In this document: positions 4,353 to 31,470 of the stretch, piece by piece
How the letters are laid out: every line of letters begins with the position of its first letter
Numbering within the stretch: the first letter of the stretch is position 1
Origin: Nitrospira sp. LK70
GTDB lineage: Bacteria; Nitrospirota; Nitrospiria; Nitrospirales; Nitrospiraceae
Direction of reading: 5' to 3'
Length of the DNA: 39,376 nt
Assembly: GCA_011090425.1 (NCBI GenBank)
Contig: PHGD01000029.1
Location: 1-39,376 of the forward strand
Translations under genes and position numbers: made by a program
Notes under the pieces: generated by a model
The model's database searches: none
The model's input: the letters and a program-made list of their open reading frames with translations, nothing else
Told to the model about the DNA's origin: nothing

Positions 4353-5603
4353 ATGAGCAAGATGAAAGCGCTGGTTTGCCGAGAGTGCGGCAAGGAATAC
4401 CCGACGAAGGCGATCCACGTCTGCGAAATGTGCTTCGGTCCCCTTGAGGTGAAGTACAACTACGACGAGATCAAGAAGACCATTTCGCGTAAGAAGATCG
4501 AGGATGGTCCGCCCAGCATGTGGCGCTACCTCGACCTGCTGCCGGTCGAAGGAACGAATTTCGTGGGACCGCATGCCGGATTCACCCCGCTCGTTCGGGC
4601 AAAGAACCTTGGCGATTATCTTGGGCTCGACGAGCTTTACATTAAGAACGACACGGTGAACCACCCAACTCTGTCGTTTAAGGACCGTGTCGTCGCCGTG
4701 GCCCTCACGCGCGCGCGTGAGCTCGGCTTCGAAACGGTGGCCTGCGCATCGACCGGCAACCTGGCCAACTCGGTCGCTGCCCATGCCGCATCCGCCAATC
4801 TGCACTGTTACGTCTTCATCCCCGGCGACCTTGAGGCCGCAAAGGTGCTCGGAAATTTGATTTATAAGCCGCACGTCGTCGAGATAGAAGGAAACTATGA
4901 CGATGTCAACCGGCTCTGCAGCGAGATCGCCGGTGAACATGGCTGGGCGTTCGTGAATATCAACATTCGTCCCTATTACGCAGAAGGCTCAAAGACGCTT
5001 GCCTTTGAGACGGTGGAACAACTGGGATGGAAAACACCGGATCAGGTCGTCATTCCAATGGCCTCCGGCTCACTCCTGACCAAGATCTGGAAAGGTCTGC
5101 ATGAGATGAAGGCCTTAGGCCTCATCGATAGCGTTCGCACAAAGATCAACGGCGCCCAAGCAGAAGGCTGCTCACCGATCTCTACAGCATTCAAGGCGGG
5201 CCGTGACTTCTTCAAGCCTGTGAAGCCACAGACAATCGCCAAATCCCTTGCCATCGGCAACCCAGCCGATGGCTACTATGCGCTCAAGGCCACCGCCGAG
5301 AGTCATGGGTCCATGGATATGGTGACGGATGAGGAAGTTGTGGAAGGCATTCAGCTTCTGGCTCAAACCGAAGGGATCTTCGCGGAAACAGCCGGAGGCG
5401 TTACGATCGGTGTGCTCAAGAAGCTCGTCAAGCAAGGTGTGATCAAAAAAGATGAGGTGACGGTGGCCTATGTCACCGGCAATGGATTGAAGACACAGGA
5501 AGCGGTGATCGATTCCGTCGGTCGCCCAGTACGCATTCAGCCCAGCCTGGTGGACTTCGAAAAGACATTTAAAATGGGAAAGAACGGTGGTGGTGGCGCA
5601 TGA
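4353..5603 (+). CDS. thrC: Threonine synthase (or threonine-synthase-like PLP enzyme)
   Basis: A fold-type II PLP enzyme of 416 aa. Residues 9-27 form a zinc-ribbon-like element (CxxC at 9/12 and 24/27). The PLP lysine is K110 in TLSFKDR, STGN is at 133-136, and a C-terminal glycine-rich domain follows. Threonine synthase converts O-phosphohomoserine to threonine. Its position between an E1 gene and a sulfur carrier (ATGA overlap with the carrier at 5600) raises an alternative: a homologous reaction of O-phosphohomoserine with carrier-bound sulfur to give homocysteine. That is inference only. AAGGTGG lies just upstream of ATG 4353. The protein ends in GGGGA; in the DNA this is followed at once by the next gene, so the tail may reflect that gene's ribosome site. 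Confidence 0.88.
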
Positions 5604-5872
5604 TTAAAGTTCGTATTCCGACTCCGCTTCGCCCCCTGACCAAGGGCCAGGGCGAGGTTGAAACCAACGCCGGCAGCGTGGTGGAAATGATCGAGGTGTT
5701 GAATAGCACCCACCCCGGCATCAAAGATCGCCTGTGCGATGAAACGGGAGAACTCCGTCGCTTCGTGAACATTTATGTCAACGAAGAAGACATTCGTTTT
5801 CTTAAAGGGAAAGACACTTCCCTCAAGGATGGCGATGAGGTTTCCATCGTCCCGGCGATCGCGGGAGGGTAA
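5600..5872 (+). CDS. CysO-like MoaD/ThiS-family sulfur carrier protein
   Basis: A 90-aa beta-grasp sulfur carrier with the MoaD/CysO layout: [14 protein letters not shown] at the N-terminus, [11 protein letters not shown] in the middle, [16 protein letters not shown], then [14 protein letters not shown]. The C-terminus is the bare GG required for adenylation and thiocarboxylation, so no trimming is needed. The [13 protein letters not shown] block is characteristic of the CysO group of cysteine-biosynthetic carriers in actinobacteria. The start overlaps thrC (ATGA) and the stop is 2 bp before the NIL gene, so it is tightly coupled on both sides. It probably donates sulfur to the cysteine synthase or threonine-synthase-like enzyme, with release by the JAMM protease at 6992. 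Confidence 0.92.
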
Positions 5873-17965: not shown

Positions 17966-19204
17966 ATGAAGAACATTTTCACCATGGTCTTGGCCGGCGG
18001 GAAGGGCGAGCGACTCTTTCCGCTGACGGACCAACGTGCGAAGCCGGCAGTTCCCTTTGGCGGGAAGTATCGTATCATCGACTTTACTCTAAGCAATTGT
18101 CTGAACTCAGGGCTTCGTAGGATCGTTGTCCTCATTCAATATAAGTCGCACTCCCTCGATCGTCACATCCGGAGCGGCTGGAATATTCTCAACGCTGAAC
18201 TCGGCGAATATATCGCCTCCGTCCCTCCTCAACAGCGCATCAACGAAGATTGGTATCGTGGCACCGCCGACGCCGTGTATCAGAACCTGTTCTTGATCGA
18301 CGACGAACAGTCGGAGTTCCTACTGATCCTCGCCGGCGATCACATTTACAAGATGAACTACGCGGAGATGTACCACTGGCTCATCGCCAAGAGCGCGGAT
18401 GCGGTCGTCGGCGCCATCGACATTCCTGTCCAGGAAGCCACTCGCTTCGGAGTCATTGCGGTGGACAAAGACTACCGGATTACTCGCTTCGATGAAAAAC
18501 CGGCTCATCCCATTCCACTGCCCAATGACCCCGCCCATGCCTTTGGGTCGATGGGTATCTACTTATTCCGTACCAAGGCGATCCGGGAACATCTGATCGC
18601 CGATGCACGGGAAGACAGTGCGCATGACTTCGGAAAAAACATCATCCCGCGGATGATCAAGCAAGGGCGCGTCTATGCGTTCAAATTTCAAGACGCGAAT
18701 AGAAAGGCGGTCCAGTATTGGCGCGACATCGGGACGCTCGATGCCTATTGGGAAGCGAATATGGACCTGGTGGCCGTTGAACCACAATTTAACTTGTACG
18801 ACTCCGACTGGCCGATTCGCACGTACCAAGGCCAGTTCCCCCCGGCTAAGTTCGTCTTCGCGCAGGACTATCAAGGAGGCCGGATGGGCGTCGCTCTCGA
18901 CTCGATCGTCTGCGGCGGATGCATCGTCTCGGGAGCGCGCGTACAGAACTCCGTGCTTTCCCCGAACGTGCGCGTCCAGGATCATGCCGACATCCGGGAA
19001 TCCATTCTCATGGAAAACGTGACGATCGGGGAGCACAGCCGCATCAGGCGCGCCATCATCGATAAGGATGTGACCATCCCTCCCCATACTGAAATCGGCT
19101 ACAACCCAGAGGCCGACGCTCAATGGTTCACGGTCACCGACTCGGGTCTCGTCGTGATCTCAAAGGGAATGAAACTGCATGCCGCCGTCGATCCATCCGG
19201 TTGA
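17966..19204 (+). CDS. glgC: Glucose-1-phosphate adenylyltransferase (ADP-glucose pyrophosphorylase)
   Basis: Makes ADP-glucose from glucose-1-phosphate and ATP, the committed step of glycogen synthesis. 412 aa. The N-terminal nucleotidyltransferase domain begins MVLAGGKGERLFPLTDQRAKPAVPFGGKYRIIDF; WYRGTADAVYQN, LAGDHIYKMNY and FDEKP follow. Substrate-site block YWRDIGTLDAYWEANMDL comes before the C-terminal left-handed beta-helix (SIVCGGCIVSGARVQNSVLSPNVRV). ATG 17966 is chosen because it starts the conserved domain; an upstream in-frame extension to 17786 overlaps the divergent gene. The only nearby GGAGGT is about 18 bp away, so initiation may be weak. The stop overlaps the next gene by 26 bp. 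No other glycogen gene is present. Confidence 0.95.
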   Translation: MKNIFTMVLAGGKGERLFPLTDQRAKPAVPFGGKYRIIDFTLSNCLNSGLRRIVVLIQYKSHSLDRHIRSGWNILNAELGEYIASVPPQQRINEDWYRGTADAVYQNLFLIDDEQSEFLLILAGDHIYKMNYAEMYHWLIAKSADAVVGAIDIPVQEATRFGVIAVDKDYRITRFDEKPAHPIPLPNDPAHAFGSMGIYLFRTKAIREHLIADAREDSAHDFGKNIIPRMIKQGRVYAFKFQDANRKAVQYWRDIGTLDAYWEANMDLVAVEPQFNLYDSDWPIRTYQGQFPPAKFVFAQDYQGGRMGVALDSIVCGGCIVSGARVQNSVLSPNVRVQDHADIRESILMENVTIGEHSRIRRAIIDKDVTIPPHTEIGYNPEADAQWFTVTDSGLVVISKGMKLHAAVDPSG

Positions 19205-21038
19205 TCTCATCACCGCTCTCCGCCAGAAGCACCTCACCCCAGCGATTGTGTTTCTCACGTCACGTCGAGCCTGCGACGAAGCCATGGAGACCTTCGACCA
19301 TGCCGATCTCGTACTCCCTCCGGCACGACAAGAAGCGATCGCCGTCGCTCTTGAACGGATCACGGTTCAACACCCCAGCATTGCCGAGCACCCGTTGATT
19401 CCTCTCGTGCGGCGGATCGGGATTGCCGCCCACCATGCCGGACATCTGCCTTCTTGGAAAATTGCGATCGAGGAGCTGATGCGACAAGGTCATCTCGATG
19501 CGGTATTTGCAACGACAACCCTAGCGGCTGGTGTGGATTTTCCAGCCCGTACGGTCGTGATTACCCAATCGAGCATCCGCAAGTCCCGTGACTTCACCGA
19601 CCTGACGATCGGCGAAGTCCAACAAATCGCCGGACGAGCCGGCCGTCGCGGAAAAGATCACGTGGGGTTTGCGATCGTGACCCCCTCTCCTTATATCGAT
19701 CTGGCGGTTCTGACCAAAGGGTTGACCGGTCAGCCGGAAGCCATCAACAGCCAGTTTACCATCAGTTACCCGATGGTCTTGAACCTCTTGAAGGCCCATC
19801 CCCATGAGCAGATTCAAGGAATCTTGGCCAAGAGTTTCGCTCAATTCCAACTGAATCAGCGCGCTGAACTCCTCGAGCAAAAACTGGACGCACTCCATGT
19901 GCAGATGGAACCGTTCGGTCCTCGAGTCTGTACGGACTGGATCACCCAATGGCACACCTTCGACCATGCGCGAAGGCACCGCCACATGCGACATCAGACG
20001 CACCGATCAGAATCGCCGGAGATTTCGGCCCGGTTGCCCTTCCTGACGCCGGGCCGCGTCGTAGGACTCGGCAGAGGCCGCGGGATCGTGCTCCGGCAAT
20101 ACCGGAGTAAGGGCCAAAAGAATTCCATGCTCACCGTCTTACGGCCGGACAGCGCCGTCACCGAATGCCCTGTCACCGGCGTGAAAGAAGTCTACGATCG
20201 CACGTACGACTGCGCGGAGACGCCGACCTATCCCTGGTGTTCTACTGACACGTTCGATCGACTCAGCCATCAATTAGAAGAGCTGCCGTCGCATGTGCCC
20301 GTGCTTCCCATACTCGTATCGCTCGGCATCGAACCTCTGCCAGACGCCATCGTCCAATCGTTAGGCGACTTCCCCTGCCCGACTTGTCCTTCGCGACCGG
20401 CCTGCCAGAAAGACTTTGCGACGGCATCGCGCCTTCGTCAGGAACAACAGCGCCATACGAAATCCATCCAAGCGCTGCGGACCAGTTTGTGGCACCGCTT
20501 TCAAGAGCGCGTAGAGGTGCTGCAGCAATTCGGGTACCTCACCCCGGCGACACAATTGACGATCGACGGAGAATGGGCCAGGCTGATCCGCATCGATCAT
20601 TCGCTGCTGATCACCGAACTGATCCGCGCCGAAGCCTTTACCGGAGCAGACCCGTCCCTCCTCGCCGGCGTCTTGGCCAGTTTGGCACACGATGATGATC
20701 GTCCCGGTGCATTTCCGCGCATCAGTCCTGGGCTGAGTTCCCTTCTCGGACAGGTTCGAAAATTGGCGGAGAGTTTATCTCCTTACGAAGATCCTCCTCT
20801 CCTACGCGCCGATGTGGCAGCCTTGGTTGAACGCTGGGTCGCCGACCCGACCCTCACATGGATTGGACTCTGTCGACTGACCACGATGGCAGAAGGCGAT
20901 ATCTACCGATTGTTGGCTAGGACCTTGGAGTTTCTGTCACAGGTGCAGACTTTAAAAGTTACCCATCCCGGCCTCGCCGAATCCGCTTCGCAGGCGATCA
21001 CGTTGATCCGACGTGGAGTGTTGGAGGAACTGCCGTGA
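19179..21038 (+). CDS. Ski2/HelY-like helicase, C-terminal half (RecA2 plus DSHCT)
   Basis: 619 aa corresponding to the second half of a Ski2-like superfamily 2 helicase. It begins at the start of RecA domain 2 (HPVDLITALRQKHLTPAIVFLTSRRACDEA). Motif V is TTTLAAGVDFPA (112-123) and motif VI QIAGRAGRRGKD (149-160). A cysteine cluster CPTCPSRPAC (400-409) may bind a metal. The C-terminus has the DSHCT-type helical domain (from about 470, VEVLQQFGYLTP, then IDHSLLITELIRAEAFTGADP). There is no Walker A or B, so it cannot hydrolyse ATP alone. The missing half is the next gene, placed downstream rather than upstream. ATG 19179 overlaps glgC by 26 bp with AAAGGGA upstream. Confidence 0.88.
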   Translation: MPPSIHPVDLITALRQKHLTPAIVFLTSRRACDEAMETFDHADLVLPPARQEAIAVALERITVQHPSIAEHPLIPLVRRIGIAAHHAGHLPSWKIAIEELMRQGHLDAVFATTTLAAGVDFPARTVVITQSSIRKSRDFTDLTIGEVQQIAGRAGRRGKDHVGFAIVTPSPYIDLAVLTKGLTGQPEAINSQFTISYPMVLNLLKAHPHEQIQGILAKSFAQFQLNQRAELLEQKLDALHVQMEPFGPRVCTDWITQWHTFDHARRHRHMRHQTHRSESPEISARLPFLTPGRVVGLGRGRGIVLRQYRSKGQKNSMLTVLRPDSAVTECPVTGVKEVYDRTYDCAETPTYPWCSTDTFDRLSHQLEELPSHVPVLPILVSLGIEPLPDAIVQSLGDFPCPTCPSRPACQKDFATASRLRQEQQRHTKSIQALRTSLWHRFQERVEVLQQFGYLTPATQLTIDGEWARLIRIDHSLLITELIRAEAFTGADPSLLAGVLASLAHDDDRPGAFPRISPGLSSLLGQVRKLAESLSPYEDPPLLRADVAALVERWVADPTLTWIGLCRLTTMAEGDIYRLLARTLEFLSQVQTLKVTHPGLAESASQAITLIRRGVLEELP

Positions 21039-21039
21039 A

Positions 21040-21126
21040 ATGGCGCGAGAATAGCGCGACAGGCGTGAAATGCGAGACACAGCCGTCTCGCGTTTCGCGC
21101 GAGTCCCGCCAGTCTCGCTCTTCGCT
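21040..21126. repeat. GCGAGA-rich palindromic spacer between helicase halves
   Basis: GCGAGAC (21072-21078) and GTCTCGC (21085-21091) form a perfect hairpin with a 6-bp loop. Further GCGCGAG/TCTCGC words and two GTGAAATG words fill the spacer. An in-frame ATG at 21070 lies inside this repeat-like sequence, which argues for the later start at 21127. Confidence 0.65.
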
Positions 21127-22182
21127 ATGACCACCGACGAGCTTGAAACACTGCTGGCTCAGCAACCGGTGGCCCTCTTGCATCGCCTTGCCCGGGGCCG
21201 TGTCCATCGGCACTTTCGTGCCGGCAAGAGGCGACTGATCGAGCTGCTTCTTCAGCATTCGAGCCAAAATCGTGCCGGCCTCGAATCTGATTTGCAGACC
21301 TTGATCGGTGAACGGCACTCTCAATCAGAATCCGGATCCTCAAGCGTCCATCATCTTCCAGCTATCACTCCCAAGAAAGCATCGCCACGTGGAACAGAGC
21401 CGGAATCCGCTGAAACCGCCATCTCTCTATCAGGCTGGCTGGAAGGCCTCGGCGTTCCTTCTCCGCAACCGTTCGTCCCTGACTCATGGCAGAACGAGGC
21501 CCTATCCGCTCTAAATGAGACCGACGTCGTCATCAGCGTCCCCACCGGCAGCGGAAAGACCTATGTGGCCGTTGAAGCAGCCCGCCGAGCCATGGAAGAC
21601 AATCGCACGGTGATTTACACGTCGCCGCTCAAAGCGTTGTCCAACACAAAGTATACGGAGTTTTCTCGGATCTTCGGTCCTGATACAGTCGGCATTCTTA
21701 CCGGAGATCGCCAGGAAAACGGGCAGGCGCCGTTACTCATCATGACGACGGAAATCCTGCGAAACCTGCTCTATGATGCCGCCAGCGGAGAAATCGATGT
21801 ACGGTTGGACACGCTGGGGCTTGTCATTTTGGATGAGTCCCAATATCTCGCAGACCCTGAACGAGGAGTCGTGTGGGAAGAAACCATTATCTTTTGTCCT
21901 TCACAGGCCAGGTTACTGTTGCTCTCCGCCTCGATCGGCAATCCTCAGGACATCGCCGATTGGCTGACCTCCATCCGATCCACTGTCTGCCGGCTCGTGC
22001 GTCACAGCAAACGCACCGTGCCCCTGCGAGCCGGTTATCTGCATCCGAACGGAAAATTGACGCCGCTCTTTAGGACATTGGGGATTCCCTACGGTCACCC
22101 CACCCACCTTCATCCAGAGACCAAGCGCCTTTTCCTTGAGTACGAAGAAGAAACCCTGCCGTCCGGGCGCCCGAGACGATAG
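21127..22182 (+). CDS. Ski2/HelY-like helicase, N-terminal half (RecA1)
   Basis: 352 aa corresponding to the first half of the same kind of helicase. An N-terminal helical region (ELETLLAQQPVALLHRLARG) is followed from about residue 120 by RecA domain 1: Q-like PDSWQNEALSAL, Walker A PTGSGKT (139-145), motif Ia TSPLKALSNTKY, motif Ib TTEILRN, motif II LDESQYLADPERG (DESQ at 236-239, where relatives have DEVH or DECH), and motif III LSASIGN. It stops just where RecA2 would begin, ending LEYEEETLPSGRPRR. The other half is the preceding gene. ATG 21127 is preferred; 21070 lies in repeat sequence. Neither has a clear ribosome site, so translation may depend on the upstream gene. Confidence 0.88.
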   Translation: MTTDELETLLAQQPVALLHRLARGRVHRHFRAGKRRLIELLLQHSSQNRAGLESDLQTLIGERHSQSESGSSSVHHLPAITPKKASPRGTEPESAETAISLSGWLEGLGVPSPQPFVPDSWQNEALSALNETDVVISVPTGSGKTYVAVEAARRAMEDNRTVIYTSPLKALSNTKYTEFSRIFGPDTVGILTGDRQENGQAPLLIMTTEILRNLLYDAASGEIDVRLDTLGLVILDESQYLADPERGVVWEETIIFCPSQARLLLLSASIGNPQDIADWLTSIRSTVCRLVRHSKRTVPLRAGYLHPNGKLTPLFRTLGIPYGHPTHLHPETKRLFLEYEEETLPSGRPRR

Positions 22183-23204: not shown

Positions 23205-24027
23205 TGGATGGCCACCCTATCGAAGTACCGGTCGGCACTCCCCGGCATGGTTCGTCGGGAAGCTGTTCGAATGCCTGCTTCTCGACAACTCCGTTGAGCA
23301 ACCGCAAGAACCGGGCCAGTCACGTGCCGATGATCCCAGGCAGCACTGCACCGACGGCAATAGATCTCCCGACTGTGCCTGGAGCGGTTAGTGTGCTCGT
23401 GACAACAACAGATGAGGCTTCCTCTTCCGTCAGTAGCTGAACAGTCGGCACTGGAGATAGCAGTGGCAATACGTATAAGTGAAACTTTTGCTGGACCGTC
23501 GAAATCATACCTGAGACCACGTTTGCTGAATAGATTTTTCTGCCCTCTCAACTGGGCAACGAGGGGAAAGTATATGAGAAGCGGCCGCCGATCTACCAAA
23601 TGTTCTTACACCATCAGATCGACCGTGCGTACGAAATGACTTGTTCCACGGGCACCGTTCAAAAAACATGAGACCATCCCGACCTGCATCAGGATGGCCT
23701 CATGAGTGTACGCTTCGCTGAAAAGTAGACGGATCAGTAGAAGGACGAGAAGAACCAGGAGGACCCATCGAGCATTTTCTTGTTCATTCTTGATCTTTTT
23801 GAAGGTTCAACCCTTCACACTCTGCACTTTCAATTCTCGACCAACCACTCAAAGCATCTAAAAATCAAACTCATCGACCATTTCATCCGGGCATCACTCT
23901 TGCTCCGTCGTCCATTTAATAGGAACACGAATAGTTTGGTTCTTTTCTCTGTCTTTCGGGGATCACTACCGGGTCCAAATTTAATACCACCATAGATCAA
24001 CGGCAATTCACCGAGGGGAGTGTCTCT
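23205..24027. other. Gene-poor interval between the outer-membrane gene and the FN3 genes
   Basis: No gene is convincing. A 66-codon minus-strand frame at 23320-23520 lacks a good ribosome site and a recognisable product. The right third (about 23780-24027) is similar to 25510-25769, the leader of the second FN3 gene pair (shared words such as AGCATCTAAAAATCAAACTC and GGCATCACTCTTGCT). It probably carries the promoter of the first pair. A strong hairpin lies at 23667-23704. Confidence 0.6.
23661..23704 (-). terminator. Hairpin followed by T-run on the minus strand
   Basis: CATGAGACCATCC (23667-23679) pairs with GGATGGCCTCATG (23692-23704), one wobble, 12-bp loop. Read on the minus strand it is followed by TTTTTT, the form of an intrinsic terminator. 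No minus-strand gene lies immediately upstream, so it may be an attenuator-like leader or a transcription barrier. Confidence 0.5.
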
Positions 24028-24588
24028 ATGTCGACGGTGAAGACTTTGGCCAGCGCTGTCATTCGGAAACCGAGGTTCTCGATGGGTGAGCTGATACTTG
24101 TCATTCCTCTACTTATGCCGCTGGCTGGTTGCACAAATGATGGAGCGGGAGGACCGATAATTTCGAGCCTTACTACGCCAACCGACGATGCAACAGGATT
24201 AGGCTCGGATCAAGCCACTACTCCCGAGGCAGCAGATTCTGATGGAGAAGAAGATCCCACGATTACGATGACTCCGACACCAACGGGCGTGACCGCGCAG
24301 TTGACTTGGGATCGTCCCTCTGACTTCAAAGCGACTGGTTACTCCATCCACTATGGGAAACGCTCATCCGAAGAACCAGGATCAGAAGAATCAGATTCAG
24401 AAGAATTAAGTTCAGAGGAGCCAAATTCATGCGCTCAAGGCGAAAGCCAAACCGTCGAGGCTCCACCCGTCACGATCACCGGGCTTGAACCCAACACAGC
24501 ATATTTTTTCGCGATCCGTGCGTTCAATGAGTCTGAGAGCATCTGCTCGAGCGAGATCACGGCGGTGACGCCTTCGGCTCAATCATAA
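24028..24588 (+). CDS. FN3-domain lipoprotein, copy 1
   Basis: 186 aa. A signal peptide ends in lipobox LAGC (PLLMPLAGCTNDG), so it should be lipid-anchored. A low-complexity Thr/Asp/Glu linker follows (about 45-80), then one fibronectin-III domain: VTAQLTWDRPSDFKATGYSIHYG at its start and ITGLEPNTAYFFAIRAFNES at its end. Between strands the domain carries an insertion of acidic SEE/SEEP repeats (about residues 112-132) not normal for FN3. ATG 24028 has GAGGGGAG upstream. It is followed by a BACON-FN3 gene and duplicated at 25770. Role is unknown; a surface adhesin or polymer-binding part is plausible next to an exopolysaccharide/exosortase locus. Confidence 0.82.
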   Translation: MSTVKTLASAVIRKPRFSMGELILVIPLLMPLAGCTNDGAGGPIISSLTTPTDDATGLGSDQATTPEAADSDGEEDPTITMTPTPTGVTAQLTWDRPSDFKATGYSIHYGKRSSEEPGSEESDSEELSSEEPNSCAQGESQTVEAPPVTITGLEPNTAYFFAIRAFNESESICSSEITAVTPSAQS

Positions 24589-24641
24589 GCGGAAGACTCC
24601 TTAGGTGCACCATCTCTCACCGAGGAAAGGCTAGGACACTG

Positions 24642-25334
24642 ATGAGGCACTTCTTTGTAGAACAGACCTACCACACGGCACGGCGGCTTCGCGGTAACGA
24701 AAACTCTTTGACCACAACTTGGTTCTGGCAGGTTGGGATTATGGCGTTCATCTGCCTGGGGCTCGCTTCCGAGTGCTTGGCGGCTTCCACTAGGCCGAAA
24801 GCTCTGACATTTTACGCTGTTCAAGGTCCGACAAACCCACCGAACCAGACATTAACCGTCTCCAGGACCAGTTCTAAGACGGCTACACTCACGGCCTCAG
24901 ACAATGCGACTTGGCTGACAGTCTCGCCGGCCACAACATCCATGACCACAAGTGCGACACTCACGGTCGCTGTCAACACCAGCGAACTTGCAGCAGGTAC
25001 GTACAACGGAACCATCACGGTCAAGATTGGAACCTGGTACACTAAGACAGTCTCCGTGACGTTGATTCTATCGCCCGCCACTCCGCCACCACCATCACCC
25101 ACGTCCTCGGCTACCCTCACGTGGGACGCGGTCACCGGCGCCCCCGTTAGCGGCTATACCGTCTACGTTGGAGAGGCGCCCCGCCTCTATACACGAACCA
25201 TTAACGTGGGCACCGTCACATCATCGACCGTGAACAGTTTGACCGTGGGCCGGACGTACTATTTCGCCGTCACAGCGTATAACAGTGCCGGCGAGAGCCC
25301 ACCCTCCAACGAGGTGAGTAAGAGCATCGACTGA
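24642..25334 (+). CDS. Secreted BACON-FN3 protein, copy 1
   Basis: 230 aa. A long N-region (about 28 residues) precedes a hydrophobic signal (FWQVGIMAFICLGLASECLAA). Residues 52-143 look like a BACON-type beta-sandwich: LTVSRTSSKTATLTASDNATWLTVSP and AAGTYNGTITVKIGTW. A proline-rich hinge (PATPPPPSPTSS) leads to an FN3 domain ending VGRTYYFAVTAYNSAGESPPSNEVSKS. BACON domains are often carbohydrate- or mucin-binding, so a role at the cell surface is likely but not shown. The start lies after GAGGAAAGG, rather distant. It follows the lipoprotein gene by 53 bp and has a duplicate at 26602. Confidence 0.8.
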   Translation: MRHFFVEQTYHTARRLRGNENSLTTTWFWQVGIMAFICLGLASECLAASTRPKALTFYAVQGPTNPPNQTLTVSRTSSKTATLTASDNATWLTVSPATTSMTTSATLTVAVNTSELAAGTYNGTITVKIGTWYTKTVSVTLILSPATPPPPSPTSSATLTWDAVTGAPVSGYTVYVGEAPRLYTRTINVGTVTSSTVNSLTVGRTYYFAVTAYNSAGESPPSNEVSKSID

Positions 25335-25769
25335 CCGCAAGGGTGATATTCTGAGAGCGCGTACACTTACTTCATGGACAGTCGCGGAAGGGTGAACGCC
25401 GATCTGTTGTTCCGATCTTGGAGGCCGATCCACTTCCCAAAGGCTCCTATCGATTTCCGCTCCTTCCATCCCCTTACCTCGGCGAATGGGCAGGAAGAAA
25501 TCCAGCGTGAGCATTTGAAATTTTCCTGTTCCATCTCGATCCTAGTGAAGGTTGTCCCCTTCACATTCTACAATCTCAATTCTCGACGACCCAATCAGAG
25601 CATCTAAAAATCAAACTCACCGACCACTTTCTCTTGGCATCACTCTTGCTGATCCTTCTTCTTAGGAAGACGAGAAGTGCGATGATGCTATCTGTATTAC
25701 ATGCTCATCACTAGGTATAAGCCTAATAGCATCATAGCTGCATGCCAATTCACTGATAGGAGTATCTCC
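25335..25769 (+). other. Spacer between the duplicated units, with leader of unit 2
   Basis: No gene is supported. From about 25510 it resembles the leader before 24028. ATGATGCTAT (25682-25691) pairs with ATAGCATCAT (25726-25735), a 10-bp inverted repeat about 35 bp before the next start. The ribosome site of the next gene, AGGAG, is at about 25759-25763. Confidence 0.6.
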
Positions 25770-26345
25770 ATGTTGACGCCTGAGACTTTGGTAGGTTTTG
25801 CCCCACGGAAATCCATCATTCTAATAGCCTATTCGGCACTTTTGATTCTGCCACTCATGTCAGCGGCTGGTTGTGCAGATGATGGCGGGGGAGGACCGAT
25901 GGTTTCCAGCCTTTCTACGCCAACGGACGCTACGGCAGAATCAGACTCGGATCAAGCTCATCATTCCGCGGTGGCAGATGCTGGTGGAGAAGAAGACCCA
26001 GTAATTACGATGACTCCGACAGCAGCGGGAGTGACCGCGCATGTAACTTGGGATCGTCCCTCCGACTTCAACGCGACCGGTTACTACATTTTCTATGGGA
26101 AACGCTCACCGGAAGAACTGCGCTCAGAAGAGCCACGTGGAGAAGAATCACTTTCAGAGGAGTCAAGCCCGGAAGAACCAACTTCATGTTCCCGTGGGGA
26201 AAGCCAAGCCGTCGAAGCTCCGCCCGCCACGATCGCTGGGCTCGAACCCAACACACCATATTTTTTCGCTATCCGCGCGGTCAACGACTCTGAGAGCATT
26301 TGCTCGAACGAGATCACGATGGTAACGCCCTCGGTTGAGTCTTAA
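25770..26345 (+). CDS. FN3-domain lipoprotein, copy 2
   Basis: Paralog of the protein at 24028, 191 aa. Signal peptide with a lipobox (LMSAAGCADDG), Thr/Asp linker, then an FN3 domain (VTAHVTWDRPSDFNATGYYIFYG; IAGLEPNTPYFFAIRAVNDS). The acidic insertion is again present but with a different repeat order (SPEELRSEEPRGEESLSEE), about five residues longer than in copy 1. ATG 25770 is chosen because AGGAG lies 7 bp upstream and it aligns with the copy 1 start; an in-frame ATG at 25701 would fall in the leader. Confidence 0.82.
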   Translation: MLTPETLVGFAPRKSIILIAYSALLILPLMSAAGCADDGGGGPMVSSLSTPTDATAESDSDQAHHSAVADAGGEEDPVITMTPTAAGVTAHVTWDRPSDFNATGYYIFYGKRSPEELRSEEPRGEESLSEESSPEEPTSCSRGESQAVEAPPATIAGLEPNTPYFFAIRAVNDSESICSNEITMVTPSVES

Positions 26346-26601
26346 GAGTACACCTCTCTTGCATGAAGGAGACTATGTAATCCAGGAGCCCTTCTCCATA
26401 GACAAGGGCTTTGAACCGTGCGAGGAACCGAACTTTTTCACACCACATCACATAGAGAATCCTGTGATGCCTCATTCCGCTGCAGGGGGTCGGTGGTCCA
26501 TCAAGCCATCTCAACTGAAGTGACCCGCGACTTGTACAGAGGCTGTTACAGACGAACATCCATAGCGAACCTTCCATCCTCGAAGAAAGGCCATGACACT
26601 G

Positions 26602-27303
26602 ATGCGACACTTCTTACTGACGCACATCACCCAAACGGCTCGGTCTCATCGTACGACTTCGTTCACACCCTGGTTCTGGCAGATACTTGGGATCACGGCA
26701 TTCCTCTGCCTTGGGCTTGTTTCTGACGGCTTGGCGGCTACGACTATCAGCCCAACATCGTTGACCTATTATGCTCAGCAGGGTGCGACCAACCCACCGA
26801 GCAAGACAATAACCGTTTCCAGAACCGGGTCCAGCCGGTCTACCCTCACAGCATCAGACAATGCGACCTGGCTTTCGGTGTCCCCGGCTAGCACCTCCAT
26901 GACCACAAGCGCAAAACTCGCAGTCGCGGTCAACACGAGCGGGCGAGGAGCAGGTACCTATAATGCGACTGTTACGATCAAAACGGGCACGTGGTATACG
27001 AAAACAGTCCCGGTGACGTTGATTGTCTCACCCACTACCTCGTCACCTCCTTCGTCACCTTCACCCGCGACGTCTACTGTCACTCTCACGTGGAACGCGG
27101 TCACCGGAACCACGATCAGCGGTTATAAAGTCTACGTTGGCGAGGCGCCCCGCCTCTACACACGAACCATTACGGTGGGTAACACCACATCATCGACCGT
27201 GAACAGTTTGACCCTAGGCAGGATGTACTATTTCGCCGTCACGGCATATAACAGCGCCGGCGAGAGTGCCCCTTCTAACGAGGCCAGCAAGACGATCCAA
27301 TAA
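26602..27303 (+). CDS. Secreted BACON-FN3 protein, copy 2
   Basis: Paralog of the protein at 24642, about 233 aa. Signal segment (FWQILGITAFLCLGLVSDGLAA), a BACON-type domain (ITVSRTGSSRSTLTASDNATWLSVSP; GAGTYNATVTIKTGTW), a Ser/Pro hinge (TTSSPPSSPSPATS), and FN3 ending MYYFAVTAYNSAGESAPSNEASKT. ATG 26602 aligns with the copy 1 start; ATG 26593 in the same frame is also possible and sits closer to AAAGG. The 256-bp gap before it is much longer than in unit 1 (53 bp), so the spacer was expanded or replaced. Ends just before a bidirectional terminator. Confidence 0.8.
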   Translation: MRHFLLTHITQTARSHRTTSFTPWFWQILGITAFLCLGLVSDGLAATTISPTSLTYYAQQGATNPPSKTITVSRTGSSRSTLTASDNATWLSVSPASTSMTTSAKLAVAVNTSGRGAGTYNATVTIKTGTWYTKTVPVTLIVSPTTSSPPSSPSPATSTVTLTWNAVTGTTISGYKVYVGEAPRLYTRTITVGNTTSSTVNSLTLGRMYYFAVTAYNSAGESAPSNEASKTIQ

Positions 27304-27343: not shown

Positions 27344-27374
27344 AAGGGCCAGTCCTCACAGAGGGCTGGCCCTT
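27344..27374. terminator. Bidirectional intrinsic terminator
   Basis: AAGGGCCAG (27344-27352) pairs with CTGGCCCTT (27366-27374), extended inward by TCCTC/GAGGG. It lies between converging genes (BACON-FN3 on plus, PEP-CTERM protein on minus), with short T-rich flanks in both directions. Confidence 0.75.
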
Positions 27375-27405: not shown

Positions 27406-27657
27406 CTAGTCTTTCCGTGAAGCTCGCTTCCAAATTCCAAGTCCAGCTAAACCAGCACCCAACAAGATCAACGACGCTGGCTCAGGAACGGATACAGGCT
27501 TAGGCTTAGGCTTGCGTGCAAAACTATCAAGGCTAGTACTCTCAATAGTAAGAGTAGTAGTAGTCGTCTGAGCCATCACAAAATCCCCTGAGAAGCCGAC
27601 AATAACTACGGCGACTCCTATAAGGATGGTACAAGGAAAGCTACAGTTCTTCTTCAT
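27406..27657 (-). CDS. Small PEP-CTERM surface protein
   Basis: 83 aa. A signal peptide (CTILIGVAVVIVGFSGDFVMAQ) is followed by only about 35 mature residues: a threonine run (TTTTTLTIESTSLD), a basic KPKPKP spacer, and then the C-terminal sorting signal VPEPASLILLGAGLAGLGIWKRASRKD-like end, with the PEP motif, a transmembrane helix and a basic tail. Exosortases recognise and cleave such tails; one is encoded at 30544. ATG 27657 is chosen because AGAGGA lies 5 bp upstream; GTG 27672 would swallow that site. The threonine run could be glycosylated. Upstream lie a sigma-54-type promoter and PrsR-like palindromes, suggesting tight control. Confidence 0.88.
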   Translation of the reverse strand: MKKNCSFPCTILIGVAVVIVGFSGDFVMAQTTTTTLTIESTSLDSFARKPKPKPVSVPEPASLILLGAGLAGLGIWKRASRKD

Positions 27658-27713
27658 CTTTGTCCTCTTCACAGCTACTCCTAGTGATTACCCCAGATGT
27701 TGGTGATAGCTAC

Positions 27714-27729
27714 AGCATAATTTGTGCTA
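27714..27729 (-). promoter_or_regulatory. Candidate sigma-54 (-24/-12) promoter of the PEP-CTERM gene
   Basis: On the minus strand TAGCACAAATTATGCT fits the TGGCAC-N5-TTGCT form with correct spacing between the -24 and -12 dinucleotides (one G to A change at -24). Transcription would start near 27702, giving a leader of about 45 nt before ATG 27657. The adjacent sigma-54 activator gene (prsR) supports it. Confidence 0.6.
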
Positions 27730-27802
27730 GTTATACGTTGATCTATAAGTAACTGAAAATATTGCGGCTTTATGCAGGATTTTTCATTCATGAAATACAG
27801 AC

Positions 27803-27819
27803 TGTAAGAAAACATTACA
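27803..27819 (-). promoter_or_regulatory. Candidate PrsR upstream activator site, proximal
   Basis: TGTAAGAAAACATTACA is a palindrome of the form TGTAAG-N6-TTACA. It shares its arms and length with 27890-27906. It lies about 80 bp upstream of the sigma-54 box, a normal enhancer distance. Confidence 0.6.
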
Positions 27820-27889
27820 CTAACTCTCTCAAAGACATCGGAATGAGAACTTATTCCAATGTTTTCAATAGGTCATGAAACATACACAG

Positions 27890-27906
27890 TGTAAGATAAC
27901 TTTACA
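27890..27906 (-). promoter_or_regulatory. Candidate PrsR upstream activator site, distal
   Basis: TGTAAGATAACTTTACA is the second 17-bp palindrome, extended by GTG/CAC outside. A weaker related palindrome, GGAATGAGAACTTATTCC (about 27840-27857), lies between the two. Together they look like a multi-site enhancer. Confidence 0.6.
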
Positions 27907-27920
27907 CATGAGAGGCTCTC

Positions 27921-29315
27921 TTACGCTCTGCTCTCTTCTAGGTTATCGGGAAATTTTGATGCCCTTAACCCAAATCGAGAGACCAACTGATAGAGGGTGG
28001 GTCGACTAATCCCCAATTCAACAGCCGCTTTGGATAGATTGCCATCCGCTTTTTCCAGTACCAACCGCACCAGCTCCTTTTCGTGAAGATCACGTGCGCC
28101 TCGGAGTGTCGTGGAACCACTATCCACGGGGGAGGGATTTTTTAGTTCCAAGTTCGCAGGGCTGACGTATTTCCCTTCCGCCATCACAACTGCCCGCTTG
28201 ACCCTATTTTCCAATTCTCGCACATTTCCAGGCCAATCATGCGCCATCAACGCTTCGATCGCTTCGGGTGTAAACCCTTTCAGTACTCTTTTTTGTGTTT
28301 CAGCAAACTTCATTAAGAACGTTCTTGCAAGGAGCGTGATATCACAACCCCGCTCCTTCAACGTCGGGATGGGAATGGTTATCACACAAAGCCTGTAAAA
28401 CAAGTCTTCCCTGAATTGACCACTATTGATTGCCTCTTGTAGATCAACATTCGTCGCTGCAAGAAGCCTAACATCGACCGAAATTATGTTCTTTCCTCCC
28501 AACCGATGGACTTTGTGATCTTGTAAAAACCGCAATAACTTGACCTGCAGACTGAATGACATATCCCCGATTTCATCCAGAAAAAGTGTGCCTCCTTGGG
28601 CGGATTCAATCGTGCCTTTTCGTTGCTGGACAGCCCCGGTGAACGCTCCCTTTTCGTACCCAAACAGCTCGCTCTCCAGAAGCGTCTCAGGGATCGCGCC
28701 GCAGTTAATGGCGACAAAGGGCCCCTCTTTGCGCCCGCTCAGTCGGTGAATCGCGCGAGCCACGAGTTCCTTCCCTGTCCCACTCTCCCCAATGATGAGG
28801 GCCGGGACATCTGACGTCCCGACGCGGCGGATCATGTCAAACACGGCTTGCATAGGCCTGCTGCTTCCCACGAGACCGTCGAATTCACTGCCGTTGGTCT
28901 TATCCTGAATGGCGCGACTCTCCTGCTCCAAGTTAAAGAGGTACGTCGCCCGCTGCAACACCACCTTCAACACATCGAGCTGTACCGGCTTCTCCAAAAT
29001 GTCATACGCGCCGCTTTGAATAGCGGCGACAGCTTTCGCTCGATCGCCGCTATCCATAACAACGATCACTTTGATTAACGGATTCAGTTGAAGGGTCTCG
29101 CGCAGGATCGCCAACCCTTCAGGCACCCCATTCACATTGGCAGCTAATCCCAGATCCAACAATACCAGCGGGGGCATGGCCTGGTGAATTTGAGACAGGG
29201 CAGCCGTACGATCCGCAGCCTCCAGCAGATCGTAGTCCGAGATAAGATCGCATTTCATCTGATCTCGAACGGCAGCATCATCATCGACAAGGAGCAAAGC
29301 AGGGCGTGTGGTCAT
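27921..29315 (-). CDS. prsR: PEP-CTERM-box response regulator, sigma-54 activator
   Basis: An NtrC-type activator of 464 aa. The receiver domain (1-120) has the acidic pocket VDDDAA (10-15), phosphoacceptor D54 in LLDLGLA, and K109 in ILEKP. The AAA+ domain has Walker A GESGTGKE (176-183), the sigma-54 contact loop GAFTGA (223-228) and Walker B TLFLDEIG (243-250). The C-terminal Fis-type helix-turn-helix is [21 protein letters not shown]. The overall layout and the exosortase context match PrsR, which with kinase PrsK and RpoN controls PEP-CTERM genes. ATG 29315 has AGGAG upstream. No PrsK gene lies in the window, so the partner kinase must be elsewhere. It lies directly upstream of the PEP-CTERM gene. 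Confidence 0.92.
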
Positions 29316-29410
29316 GACAGAAATTCTCCTCTCTTATAGATCTGCAGAGGGCCTGCTCCTCTTACCCTTTGAAACATCACATCCTCACATTCCGTGCCGG
29401 ACCACATCGT

Positions 29411-30466
29411 TCAGCCGACATGCCGATACATATGCCGACCCACCGAAACCAGCATTTTGGCAGGAACGTAGGTACAGATGGTTTTCGCTAGACGCACCTT
29501 CAGACGTTCCAAGGGGGGAAACACCTCACCGACAGGACCGCGCCACAGGGTGAGTCGCATACTCTGTGCCCCCCAACGTTCCTTGAACCTGATCAATCCT
29601 CCATCCTCGGGCTCCGACCGACCCAAATCGAGCTCTTCCATCCCTGCCGCTTTCGCTGCTTGGATGGCCTGCCAGAAAAGCATCGGGGTCGCCCCGAGAT
29701 TGTTAAACCGGGCATCGGAGCCCCCGTACTTGTAATACATCTTCTTGCGATGATTCATAGTCAAGATTCCTGCGACGGGTTGGTCTCCCTTGAATGCAAT
29801 GCGAATACAGACATCTTTTCCCATACAGGCAACGAGATTCTGGAACCATTCGAACGGCTGAGGCGGAAGATGTTTGCGCAATCTCGTCTGCACGATAAGG
29901 GCATAAAATGACAGCACTAGAGATTCGCTCCGGCCCTCCTCATACCTCAATCCTTGGCGTTCCGCATGACGAATTCTCCGCCTAATGCAATCCTTATGGA
30001 ATCCCTTGTATAACGCATCGAGGCTGGGCCGAAGGTCGAGCCGATGCCATCGATAGACTTTACATTCCCTAAGCTCTTCCTCGACACCAACGGAAATGCC
30101 GCTGCATCGCATTTCAGCATATTTCCATCGCTGTGTGCTTCGGAGCGTTTCGAGATGAGCAGATAGTGATCGGAGCTGCTCTCTATTTTCAACCAGCGGT
30201 TCGCAGTGGTCCGTAAAGGGCAGCGAAACCAGTCGGCTGCCAGTCAGCCAACTTCGCACGACACAAAACAGGAGGGCGTTCGTCAGTTTTTCAAATGGGG
30301 CAGAGGTCGTGAGCACAACCGGTTCATACCCATAGGTGGTGCGCAAAGCCTGAAGCCAGCCGATCGTATGGAAGACGGAAGAGTTCGGATGTCTATCGAC
30401 AAACTTGGGCCACCGATCATCTAAGAGTGGATTTATCGTCCAGACGCCACCCTGTACCAAGTCCAT
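29411..30466 (-). CDS. FemAB/GNAT-like protein of the exosortase system
   Basis: About 351 aa. Contains a FemAB-like acyltransferase fold in two related halves. Recognisable parts are FHTIGWLQALRTTYGYEPVVL near the N-terminus and then RRRIRHAERQGLRYEEG, FYALIVQTRLRKHLPPQPFEWF, PVAGILTMNHRKKMYYKYGGSDARFNNLGATPMLFWQAI and LDLGRSEPEDGGLIRFKERWG. This is the family found beside PEP-CTERM/exosortase genes, thought to modify polysaccharide or peptide. ATG 30466 is preferred (GAGAGG 6 bp upstream). ATG 30547 in the same frame would overlap the exosortase gene by 4 bp and add 27 residues. It lies between the exosortase and prsR. Confidence 0.85.
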   Translation of the reverse strand: MDLVQGGVWTINPLLDDRWPKFVDRHPNSSVFHTIGWLQALRTTYGYEPVVLTTSAPFEKLTNALLFCVVRSWLTGSRLVSLPFTDHCEPLVENREQLRSLSAHLETLRSTQRWKYAEMRCSGISVGVEEELRECKVYRWHRLDLRPSLDALYKGFHKDCIRRRIRHAERQGLRYEEGRSESLVLSFYALIVQTRLRKHLPPQPFEWFQNLVACMGKDVCIRIAFKGDQPVAGILTMNHRKKMYYKYGGSDARFNNLGATPMLFWQAIQAAKAAGMEELDLGRSEPEDGGLIRFKERWGAQSMRLTLWRGPVGEVFPPLERLKVRLAKTICTYVPAKMLVSVGRHMYRHVG

Positions 30467-30543
30467 CGCGCCCTCTCGTGCAATCGGAGCTTGTCCACAG
30501 CATATGGCATCGGTATTGTGATCAGGCTTGAGCACAAGACCCA

Positions 30544-31470
30544 TCATGTGTCATACCCGAACCGCTGTTCTATCTTGCGCAGCAGCCAGACAACGGAAAA
30601 GAGCACCGCGAGCGAAAGGACAAAGAAGGGAATACCGCCGTTCCGGTGGAGAGCGTTGTCCGTAATGAAGCTAGGGTCGACATAGTTTGCAAGCAGAGCT
30701 AATCCGACGATCCGCACGGCATTCTTCACGATCGCCAGCGGGACAACGATGGACACAAGTCCCATTTTCCCCCAGGTCGATCGAAGCATCAGATGGCCCG
30801 CCGCGAGACTGGTAATGAATAACGCGAGAGCAGATCGGATGCCGCTGCATTCTTCCGCCACATAGATCGTGAAGTCCGACAGGCTGAACACAAACCCCTC
30901 GCGAAGGACCGGGATCCCGAGTATAGAGAACAGCAATTCCACTGCGTCAGCCGAACTGTGCTGTAGAAAACCGACGACGGCATCGAGGAAAAACGAAGGA
31001 AACGGTACCATGAAGGCCATAAAACCCAATCCGAAGGATGCCGCGCAAAAGGCTTGTCTCCCGTAGCAGAAAAGAAAGGCACCCCAGCACATCATCACAA
31101 AGGAAAGCATCGAGGGAGATAAACTGTCGAGCGTCTCACTTACAGGGTCTGTTGTACCCAACGCTACCGCAACCCCAACTAACATCATGATTGACCCGAA
31201 AAATGGACTCCATTCCACCGTGGCAAAGATCGACGCTCGCCGCAGATACAGCAGGTACAGGCAGAGAAGTGGGATCAAGACGATATGGGAATAATGCTGA
31301 GCATGCTCATCCTGGAGAGAGCTGGTGAAGACAAGAGCCAAGGGTTCCCAGAACCAAAGAATGTTTGCGACAACCAGGAGGAGGCAGCTGATATCCCTGA
31401 GCTCGAAACGCAGGAGCCCCTGCGAACCACCCCATGGACTCCAACATGCTCGTGGAAGCTTATCCAACAT
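30544..31470 (-). CDS. Exosortase (PEP-CTERM sorting enzyme)
   Basis: Integral-membrane cysteine protease/transpeptidase of 308 aa that processes PEP-CTERM tails. About eight hydrophobic segments are present. Catalytic residues are visible in the standard order: Cys208 in YVAEECSGIRSALALF, Arg253 in VKNAVRIVGLALLANYVDPSF, and His275 in ALHRNGGIPFF. HYSHIVLIPLLCLYLLY near residue 60 is also family-typical. There is no fused EpsI-like C-terminal domain, and no separate EpsI gene in the window. It lies upstream of the FemAB-like gene with near-overlap, so the two are coupled. The likely substrate is the small PEP-CTERM protein at 27406, along with others outside the window. Confidence 0.93.
   Translation of the reverse strand: MLDKLPRACWSPWGGSQGLLRFELRDISCLLLVVANILWFWEPLALVFTSSLQDEHAQHYSHIVLIPLLCLYLLYLRRASIFATVEWSPFFGSIMMLVGVAVALGTTDPVSETLDSLSPSMLSFVMMCWGAFLFCYGRQAFCAASFGLGFMAFMVPFPSFFLDAVVGFLQHSSADAVELLFSILGIPVLREGFVFSLSDFTIYVAEECSGIRSALALFITSLAAGHLMLRSTWGKMGLVSIVVPLAIVKNAVRIVGLALLANYVDPSFITDNALHRNGGIPFFVLSLAVLFSVVWLLRKIEQRFGYDT

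Follow-up and report, generated by a model that had tools for sequence, protein, structure and literature searches.

A candidate sigma-54 promoter and upstream palindrome precede a tandemly duplicated FN3-lipoprotein gene pair in Nitrospira

How is a pair of genes for exported FN3 proteins, present twice in tandem beside an exosortase locus of Nitrospira sp. LK70, switched on, and do its two products belong together? Nitrospira, as inhabitants of flocs and biofilms, are major nitrite oxidisers and complete ammonia oxidisers (comammox) in soils, waters and treatment plants. The stretch analysed here, referred to as the window, comprises 39,376 nucleotides of contig PHGD01000029.1 (assembly GCA_011090425.1) and holds two copies of a unit in which a gene for an FN3 lipoprotein (LIPO) is followed by one for a secreted protein with a BACON-like and an FN3 domain (BACON-FN3). 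The answer that we favour with good confidence, drawn as it is from sequence comparison, is that each unit is an operon behind a sigma-54 promoter, which would be switched on a signal by an enhancer-binding protein (EBP) at the palindrome TGAAGG-N6-CCTTCA and would yield secreted products for adhesion or the matrix.

Both units lie on the plus strand. In the first, LIPO-1 (24028..24588) encodes a lipoprotein with the lipobox LAGC and one FN3 domain with an acidic SEE(P/S) loop (PF00041, 34.3 bits), and BACON-FN3-1 (24642..25334) encodes a signal sequence followed by a BACON-like domain (PF19190, 27 bits) and an FN3 domain (PF00041, 41.5 bits). The second consists of LIPO-2 (25770..26345; lipobox AAGC; PF00041, 26.4 bits) and BACON-FN3-2 (26593..27303; PF19190, 32 bits; PF00041, 37.7 bits). 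The Pfam gathering score (25 bits for each of these profiles) was passed by FN3 in all four proteins and by BACON_2 in both products of the second genes, and none of the four matched any NCBIfam family. The listed open reading frame of LIPO-2 opens at 25701; the start homologous to that of unit 1 is 25770, with a GGAG ribosome-binding-like stretch, and the Met of BACON-FN3-2 homologous to unit 1 is at 26602. An N-terminal signal and a lipobox ending in a Cys that was unchanged in 15 of 15 aligned sequences mark LIPO as a predicted bacterial lipoprotein. DNA repeats match both genes of the units at 73-80%, and together with the coordinates and the Pfam matches they bear out the preliminary description, in which the same two genes had been seen twice in tandem and in the same order. 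The tandem duplication is real and ordinary.

The similarity of the leader DNA, which had likewise been proposed, was recovered by alignment of the units as a repeat of 131 nt with 82% identity (23774-23904 versus 25520-25650) and a second repeat with 70% identity (23963-24049 versus 25705-25791). The longer repeat contains two elements on the plus strand, which the preliminary description had not recognised. An enhancer-like palindrome, TGAAGG-TTCAAC-CCTTCA at 23800..23817 in unit 1 and TGAAGG-TTGTCC-CCTTCA at 25546..25563 in unit 2, has the same arms in both units and a different centre, and its end lies 72 bp from the GG of a sigma-54 -24/-12 box in both cases (GGGCATCACTCTTGCT at 23889..23904 and TGGCATCACTCTTGCT at 25635..25650). 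Both boxes have the -24 GG and the -12 GC ten bases apart and TTGC at -12, as is characteristic of sigma-54 promoters, and in a sigma-54 scan of the window the unit-2 box had the top score and the unit-1 box was joint third. Sigma-70 and terminator scans of the region yielded fewer sites than in shuffles.

When the 4.7 Mb genome was searched for the strict palindrome together with GG-N10-GC, the pattern was found in only four places, namely the leaders of LIPO-1, of LIPO-2 and of a third such gene (contig C144), and the unit-2 palindrome in its reverse reading; the reversed control gave no place in the same genome. The product of the third gene has 54% protein identity, its leader contains both palindrome and box, and a BACON-FN3 neighbour is absent. 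A relaxed palindrome search in this genome returned 11 rows versus three in the control, and the rows other than LIPO leaders look like chance. A T-rich stretch of the TTCTTGTTC-TTCTTGATCTTT type, similar in several relatives, stands just upstream of the palindromes at 23800 and 25546 and could be a second site.

The leader was then followed through a family set of 175 genomes, a genus set of 79 and an order set of 235. A LIPO match at 1e-8 was present in at least 94 of the 175 family genomes, and the scan of this set supplied 84 pattern places, 65 inside the genus and 19 outside. One duplicate row each was left out for G100, G101 and G174, where a palindrome recurs with a different sigma-54 spacing, and LIPO rows that are second pieces of a gene were likewise not used in the comparison. 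Inside the genus, at least 47 of the 65 places lie within 700 bp upstream of a same-strand LIPO match, in at least 37 genomes; outside it, none of the 19 has a LIPO match downstream among the matches listed. In the genus loci that were fetched, the palindrome (with up to one mismatch) and the box, at spacings of 50-95, preceded 42 of 53 LIPO genes as opposed to none of 34 BACON-FN3 genes.

The box extends beyond the genus. All 15 LIPO relatives from two other genera have a 10-of-10 box upstream, and in 18 larger loci from these genera, 3.6 to 15 kb long and drawn mostly from genomes of the first set, it precedes LIPO in every case, with only two further 10-of-10 boxes in about 232 kb. The palindrome variants of these genera stand at the matching place in 9 of the 15 relatives. 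A profile search of the 235 order genomes placed the LIPO family in 99 genomes, including 71 of the 79 in the genus, and in 5 of 37 genera. Among its 30 best matches, 29 were readable (in G152 a contig end hid the frame); 28 of these had a box scoring 9 of 10 or better and the last a box of 8 of 10, where chance would give 0.024 boxes of 9 of 10 or better per 700 bp.

The distance from the palindrome end to the GG was collected for 60 leaders, all with the palindrome: 42 from the 53-gene test, 13 from the best profile matches and five from the 18 other-genus loci. It was 53 bp in one leader, 62-65 bp in seven, 70-75 bp in 39 and 82-85 bp in 13, with none at 54-61 or 76-81 bp, and the classes near 53, 63, 73 and 83 bp are one helical turn apart. 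A helical test on the four class centres gave p of about 0.017 at a period of 10.5 and 2e-5 at a period of 10.0, for classes picked after the data were seen and a period that was not fixed; 37 unmatched pattern places displayed no comparable clustering (R 0.26 versus 0.78). Whole-turn classes are the trace expected of an activator bound to a fixed face of the DNA, and an upstream candidate activator site at a helically phased distance is what a sigma-54 promoter would be expected to have.

Several points weigh against the reading of the units as activator-switched operons. The leaders are related by descent, so that their counts are not independent; since, in addition, the classes were seen before the test and the period is loose, the spacing is supporting evidence, short of proof. 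In the two other genera the palindrome occurs only as a variant (up to two of 12 mismatches), in 9 of 15 relatives and 10 of 18 loci. No EBP gene was found near 20 other LIPO loci of the genus or the 18 loci of other genera, and the palindrome, with up to one mismatch, was absent around all 30 of the EBP loci of this genome that were checked. FN3 and BACON domains alone are no proof of adhesion or glycan binding. Finally, 11 of the 53 genus LIPO genes fail the test for palindrome and box. Three of them (in G062, in G084 and in the second unit of G106) have a perfect box and a palindrome with two mismatches, one (the first unit of G106) has a perfect palindrome and a perfect box separated by an insertion with inverted ends, and the remaining seven are other LIPO-like copies, of which six lie near exosortase genes and the seventh, in G054, has a box of 9 of 10.

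The insertion in G106 (L078, about 5350-5660, before the first LIPO gene; ends AGGCTGCGGAAAAA ... TTTTTCCGCAGCCT) is a natural displacement of enhancer and promoter. Six relatives have a further LIPO-like FN3 gene near exosortase/PrsR genes, lacking the palindrome and the sigma-54 leader (L089 1652, L087 1918, L080 5478, L095 1536, L079 4477 and L078 9692).

Whether LIPO and BACON-FN3 belong together can be judged from the locus in relatives. In 21 genomes, within the limits of their contigs and apart from local losses, the order is GlgC, helicase genes and an outer-membrane protein, then the LIPO-BACON unit or units, then a PEP-CTERM protein, PrsR, a FemAB-like protein and the exosortase. At this type of locus all 25 LIPO genes of the 21 genomes are followed by a same-strand BACON-FN3 gene; such a neighbour was found at none of 20 loci around other LIPO genes of the genus and at none of the 18 other-genus loci. 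Between the two units the LIPO proteins are 64% and the BACON-FN3 proteins 70.5% identical. The comparison of synonymous and non-synonymous change that the preliminary description had called for gave, by a simple Nei-Gojobori count (NG86-type), a dN/dS of 0.44 for LIPO and 0.22 for BACON-FN3, with a dS of 0.52 and 0.82, respectively; the duplication is thus old, and both genes are under purifying selection.

The tandem form occurs in four genomes (G000, G106, G107 and G108), across which the unit-1 BACON-FN3 genes are orthologous (clade 99/99), and the duplication therefore predates their split. The unit-1 and unit-2 LIPO genes of G106 and G108, however, cluster together (98/98), as after gene conversion or a separate duplication, and the BACON-FN3 ortholog is located in the other unit. 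The LIPO and BACON-FN3 trees thus conflict in these two genomes, and the partners do not have one common history throughout. An extra BACON-FN3 gene lies upstream of the LIPO unit in L082, L084, L089, L091, L094, L095 and L080, and these copies form a clade of their own (100/100). Further upstream, a Ski2-like helicase seemingly occurs in two genes in swapped order (19179-22182 of the window; domains named by eye): the C-terminal half (19179-21038) comes first and the half bearing the ATP-binding motif (21070-22182) second, as in relatives.

If the two proteins were obligate partners in one surface complex, and the duplication had been kept to diversify that complex, the invariant order of the 25 genes and the purifying selection on both would be accounted for. 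However, LIPO stands solo at many loci, and the conflicting trees in G106 and G108, together with the unequal dS of 0.52 versus 0.82, indicate that LIPO and BACON-FN3 were not always inherited as a unit, so that we regard obligate partnership as unlikely. The earlier suggestion that the pair are partners at the cell surface accordingly survives in part: gene order at this locus and purifying selection agree with it, whereas solo loci and conflicting trees speak against a fixed binding pair.

A second suggestion, that unequal spacers may have let expression of the second gene diverge, was not supported. The spacers do differ, with 53 bp in unit 1 and 247 bp in unit 2, the 256 bp of the preliminary description applying when Met 26602 is taken as the start. 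In relatives the spacers at this locus measure between about 55 and about 395 bp, and the longer second spacer, inside this range by the annotated starts, is unremarkable. In addition, none of the 34 BACON-FN3 genes has a sigma-54/enhancer leader of its own, and no terminator-like site was found between LIPO and BACON-FN3 in the region scan.

The identity of the activator was approached from the adjacent genes. As the preliminary description had it, the pair of units adjoins the exosortase run and lies outside it: directly downstream, on the minus strand, the run (27406-31470) comprises a small PEP-CTERM protein (27406..27672), convergent with the units, the sigma-54-interacting response regulator PrsR (27921..29315; TIGR02915, 572.9 bits at a cut-off of 502.6), a FemAB-like protein and the exosortase (30544..31470). 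An inverted repeat with 14-nt arms that are 93% complementary forms a hairpin between the units and the PEP-CTERM gene (27344..27374) and is a probable transcription boundary. Between PrsR and the PEP-CTERM gene, on the minus strand, lie two 17-nt TGTAA-N7-TTACA palindromes of the PEP-CTERM-box type (27803..27906, at 27803 and 27890), and the same motif occupies the same position in relatives with PrsR at the locus. Palindromes of this type in 27690-27921 read TGTAAGAAAACATTACA and TGTAAGATAACTTTACA, in a host outside the Proteobacteria, and in the box closest to them on the side of the PEP-CTERM gene (TAGCACAAATTATGCT at 27729, minus strand) AG replaces the expected GG.

It could be envisaged that the adjacent PrsR activates the units, with their palindrome as a local form of the PEP-CTERM box and the FN3 pair as part of the exosortase regulon. 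PrsR is next to the units and above cut-off, and the architecture is alike, with a palindrome of 17-18 nt, a sigma-54 box and, in the extracts of PMC1569441 on which we draw, a spacer averaging near 63 nt. The palindrome also has one or two mismatches in four loci without an adjacent PrsR (G062, G128, G057 and G083), although three of these four carry PrsR elsewhere in the genome. Against this, PrsR passed the cut-off in only 21 of the 79 genus genomes (the search scored, in most of them, the 18 best first-look candidates) and was not found in 23 of the 37 listed genomes with a palindrome-bearing LIPO gene, among them the single-contig genomes G053, G091 and G115. Moreover, the TGTAA-N7-TTACA motif lies between PrsR and the PEP-CTERM gene and, with up to one mismatch, was found in neither unit leader. 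Activation by PrsR was therefore rejected as the main reading, and its control of the units seems to us improbable. With PrsR-type sites outside the LIPO leaders, two sigma-54 circuits appear to stand side by side.

The EBPs of the genome were also searched for candidates. EBP-domain matches numbered 34 in this genome, 4 in G081, 12 in G096, 16 in G101, 22 in G151 and 34 in G037, and eight of 32 EBP proteins of this genome had reciprocal best matches in both G096 and G101 but lacked one in G081. This short list of eight was dropped, because G151 and G037 contain all eight as well, and because G081, used as a LIPO-free genome, contains a LIPO-like piece in the profile search.

A further alternative is that the palindrome is bound by a repressor or some other regulator with no connection to sigma-54 and that the boxes are incidental. 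Palindromic sites are indeed common to many regulators; yet a box in 28 of 29 leaders, against the 0.024 expected, is hard to call incidental, and the palindrome-box spacing is phased. As a sigma-54 activator must contact the sigma-54 polymerase through a DNA loop, phased spacing speaks for an activator, and the probability that we attach to an unrelated regulator is lower still than that for PrsR. That the leaders, 82% alike along their length, are a functionless leftover of recent duplication is hardly credible, given that the duplication is not recent (dS 0.5-0.8; common to four species), that palindrome and box are the best conserved parts and recur before the distant third LIPO gene, and that the box is kept in other genera.

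AlphaFold gave LIPO a confident FN3 domain (residues about 74-185) in which the acidic SEE(P/S) stretch (about 116-131) is of low confidence and probably disordered, and BACON-FN3 two confident beta domains. A fold search returned generic FN3/Ig-like matches only, and two-domain superpositions of BACON-FN3, at a root-mean-square deviation near 20, were uninformative on domain arrangement. Two cysteines unchanged in the LIPO FN3 domains of 16 aligned sequences from three genera probably form a disulfide. The SEE(P/S) repeat (24361-24430 and 26107-26190) has a species-specific length and is longest in L146; solo LIPO types have no such repeat in FN3, and instead have long acidic linkers or none.

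Taken together, we propose that a single sigma-54 promoter would drive each unit as an operon in which LIPO precedes BACON-FN3. An EBP (AAA+ activator, NtrC type) would bind the palindrome on the same DNA face as the promoter, about five to eight helical turns upstream, and turn the operon on upon a signal. Of the exported products, LIPO would be an FN3 protein anchored by lipid and bearing a disordered acidic loop, and BACON-FN3 a secreted protein of two domains, both probably serving adhesion or the extracellular matrix. The FN3 units would sit beside exosortase/PEP-CTERM matrix genes and yet belong to a separate sigma-54 circuit. The ancestral element was probably a solo LIPO gene behind a sigma-54 promoter, an arrangement present in each of the three genera whose leaders were examined. 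In part of Nitrospira the BACON-FN3 gene would then have been added at one locus, and duplication of the pair would have preceded the split of four of the sampled species. More tentatively, and with slightly less than even confidence, we suggest a second, PrsR-independent sigma-54 surface circuit of the Nitrospiraceae, with a dedicated activator palindrome essentially restricted to FN3 lipoproteins and kept on the same DNA face through whole-turn jumps, and LIPO-BACON operons as its amplified output beside the exosortase locus.

Given the recurrence of the sigma-54/enhancer leader, production of these FN3 surface proteins probably takes place only in response to a specific signal. A conserved signal-gated lipoprotein with a defined promoter would give a handle on the timing of surface production in Nitrospira, its leader palindrome could be used as DNA bait for the activator and hence the signal, and the whole-turn spacing classes allow the helical-phasing rule of sigma-54 enhancers to be tested on natural variation. 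Our searches of the open-licence PMC literature showed no description of a TGAAGG-N6-CCTTCA site or of a LIPO regulon.

The nearest known system is the PEP-CTERM box and PrsK-PrsR sigma-54 regulon of exosortase systems described by Haft et al. (2006; PMC1569441), where, in the extracts cited, the box is a 17-nt motif ending TTTACA and found in Proteobacteria only. As far as those extracts go, the LIPO leaders share with it an activator site, a spacer of about 60-90 nt, a sigma-54 box, a secreted surface protein, and exosortase and exopolysaccharide-type genes alongside. They differ in their 18-nt TGAAGG-N6-CCTTCA site, in their occurrence without PrsR and in products without a PEP-CTERM tail; neither PF07589 nor TIGR02595 matched any of the four unit proteins at E 0.1, and the units showed none of the marks of that regulon (a PEP-CTERM end, motif 1 before the box, regular co-occurrence with PrsR across the genus). 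In an Aquincola floc former, the excerpted account (PMC9850573) gives an RpoN-dependent pepA, tied to floc formation, with a mapped sigma-54 promoter (TGGCAC / CTGCTT). It resembles the present case in its secreted protein, sigma-54 promoter and upstream enhancer-like sequence, and differs, as described there, in being a PEP-CTERM protein of a proteobacterial host with no FN3 lipoprotein. The survey by Francke et al. (2011; PMC3162934), which treats sigma-54 as a controller of the bacterial exterior, connects sigma-54 genes with exopolysaccharide, lipoproteins and the envelope, in line with the LIPO leaders; in the parts of it drawn on here, Nitrospira appears only in the placing of phyla and no such regulon is described. 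At the level of the products, FN3 (PF00041) in all four proteins and BACON_2 (PF19190) in the two BACON-FN3 proteins are matched by profile, with FN3-like folds in the predicted structures, and the LIPO FN3 domain is set apart by its acidic SEE(P/S) insert of variable length.

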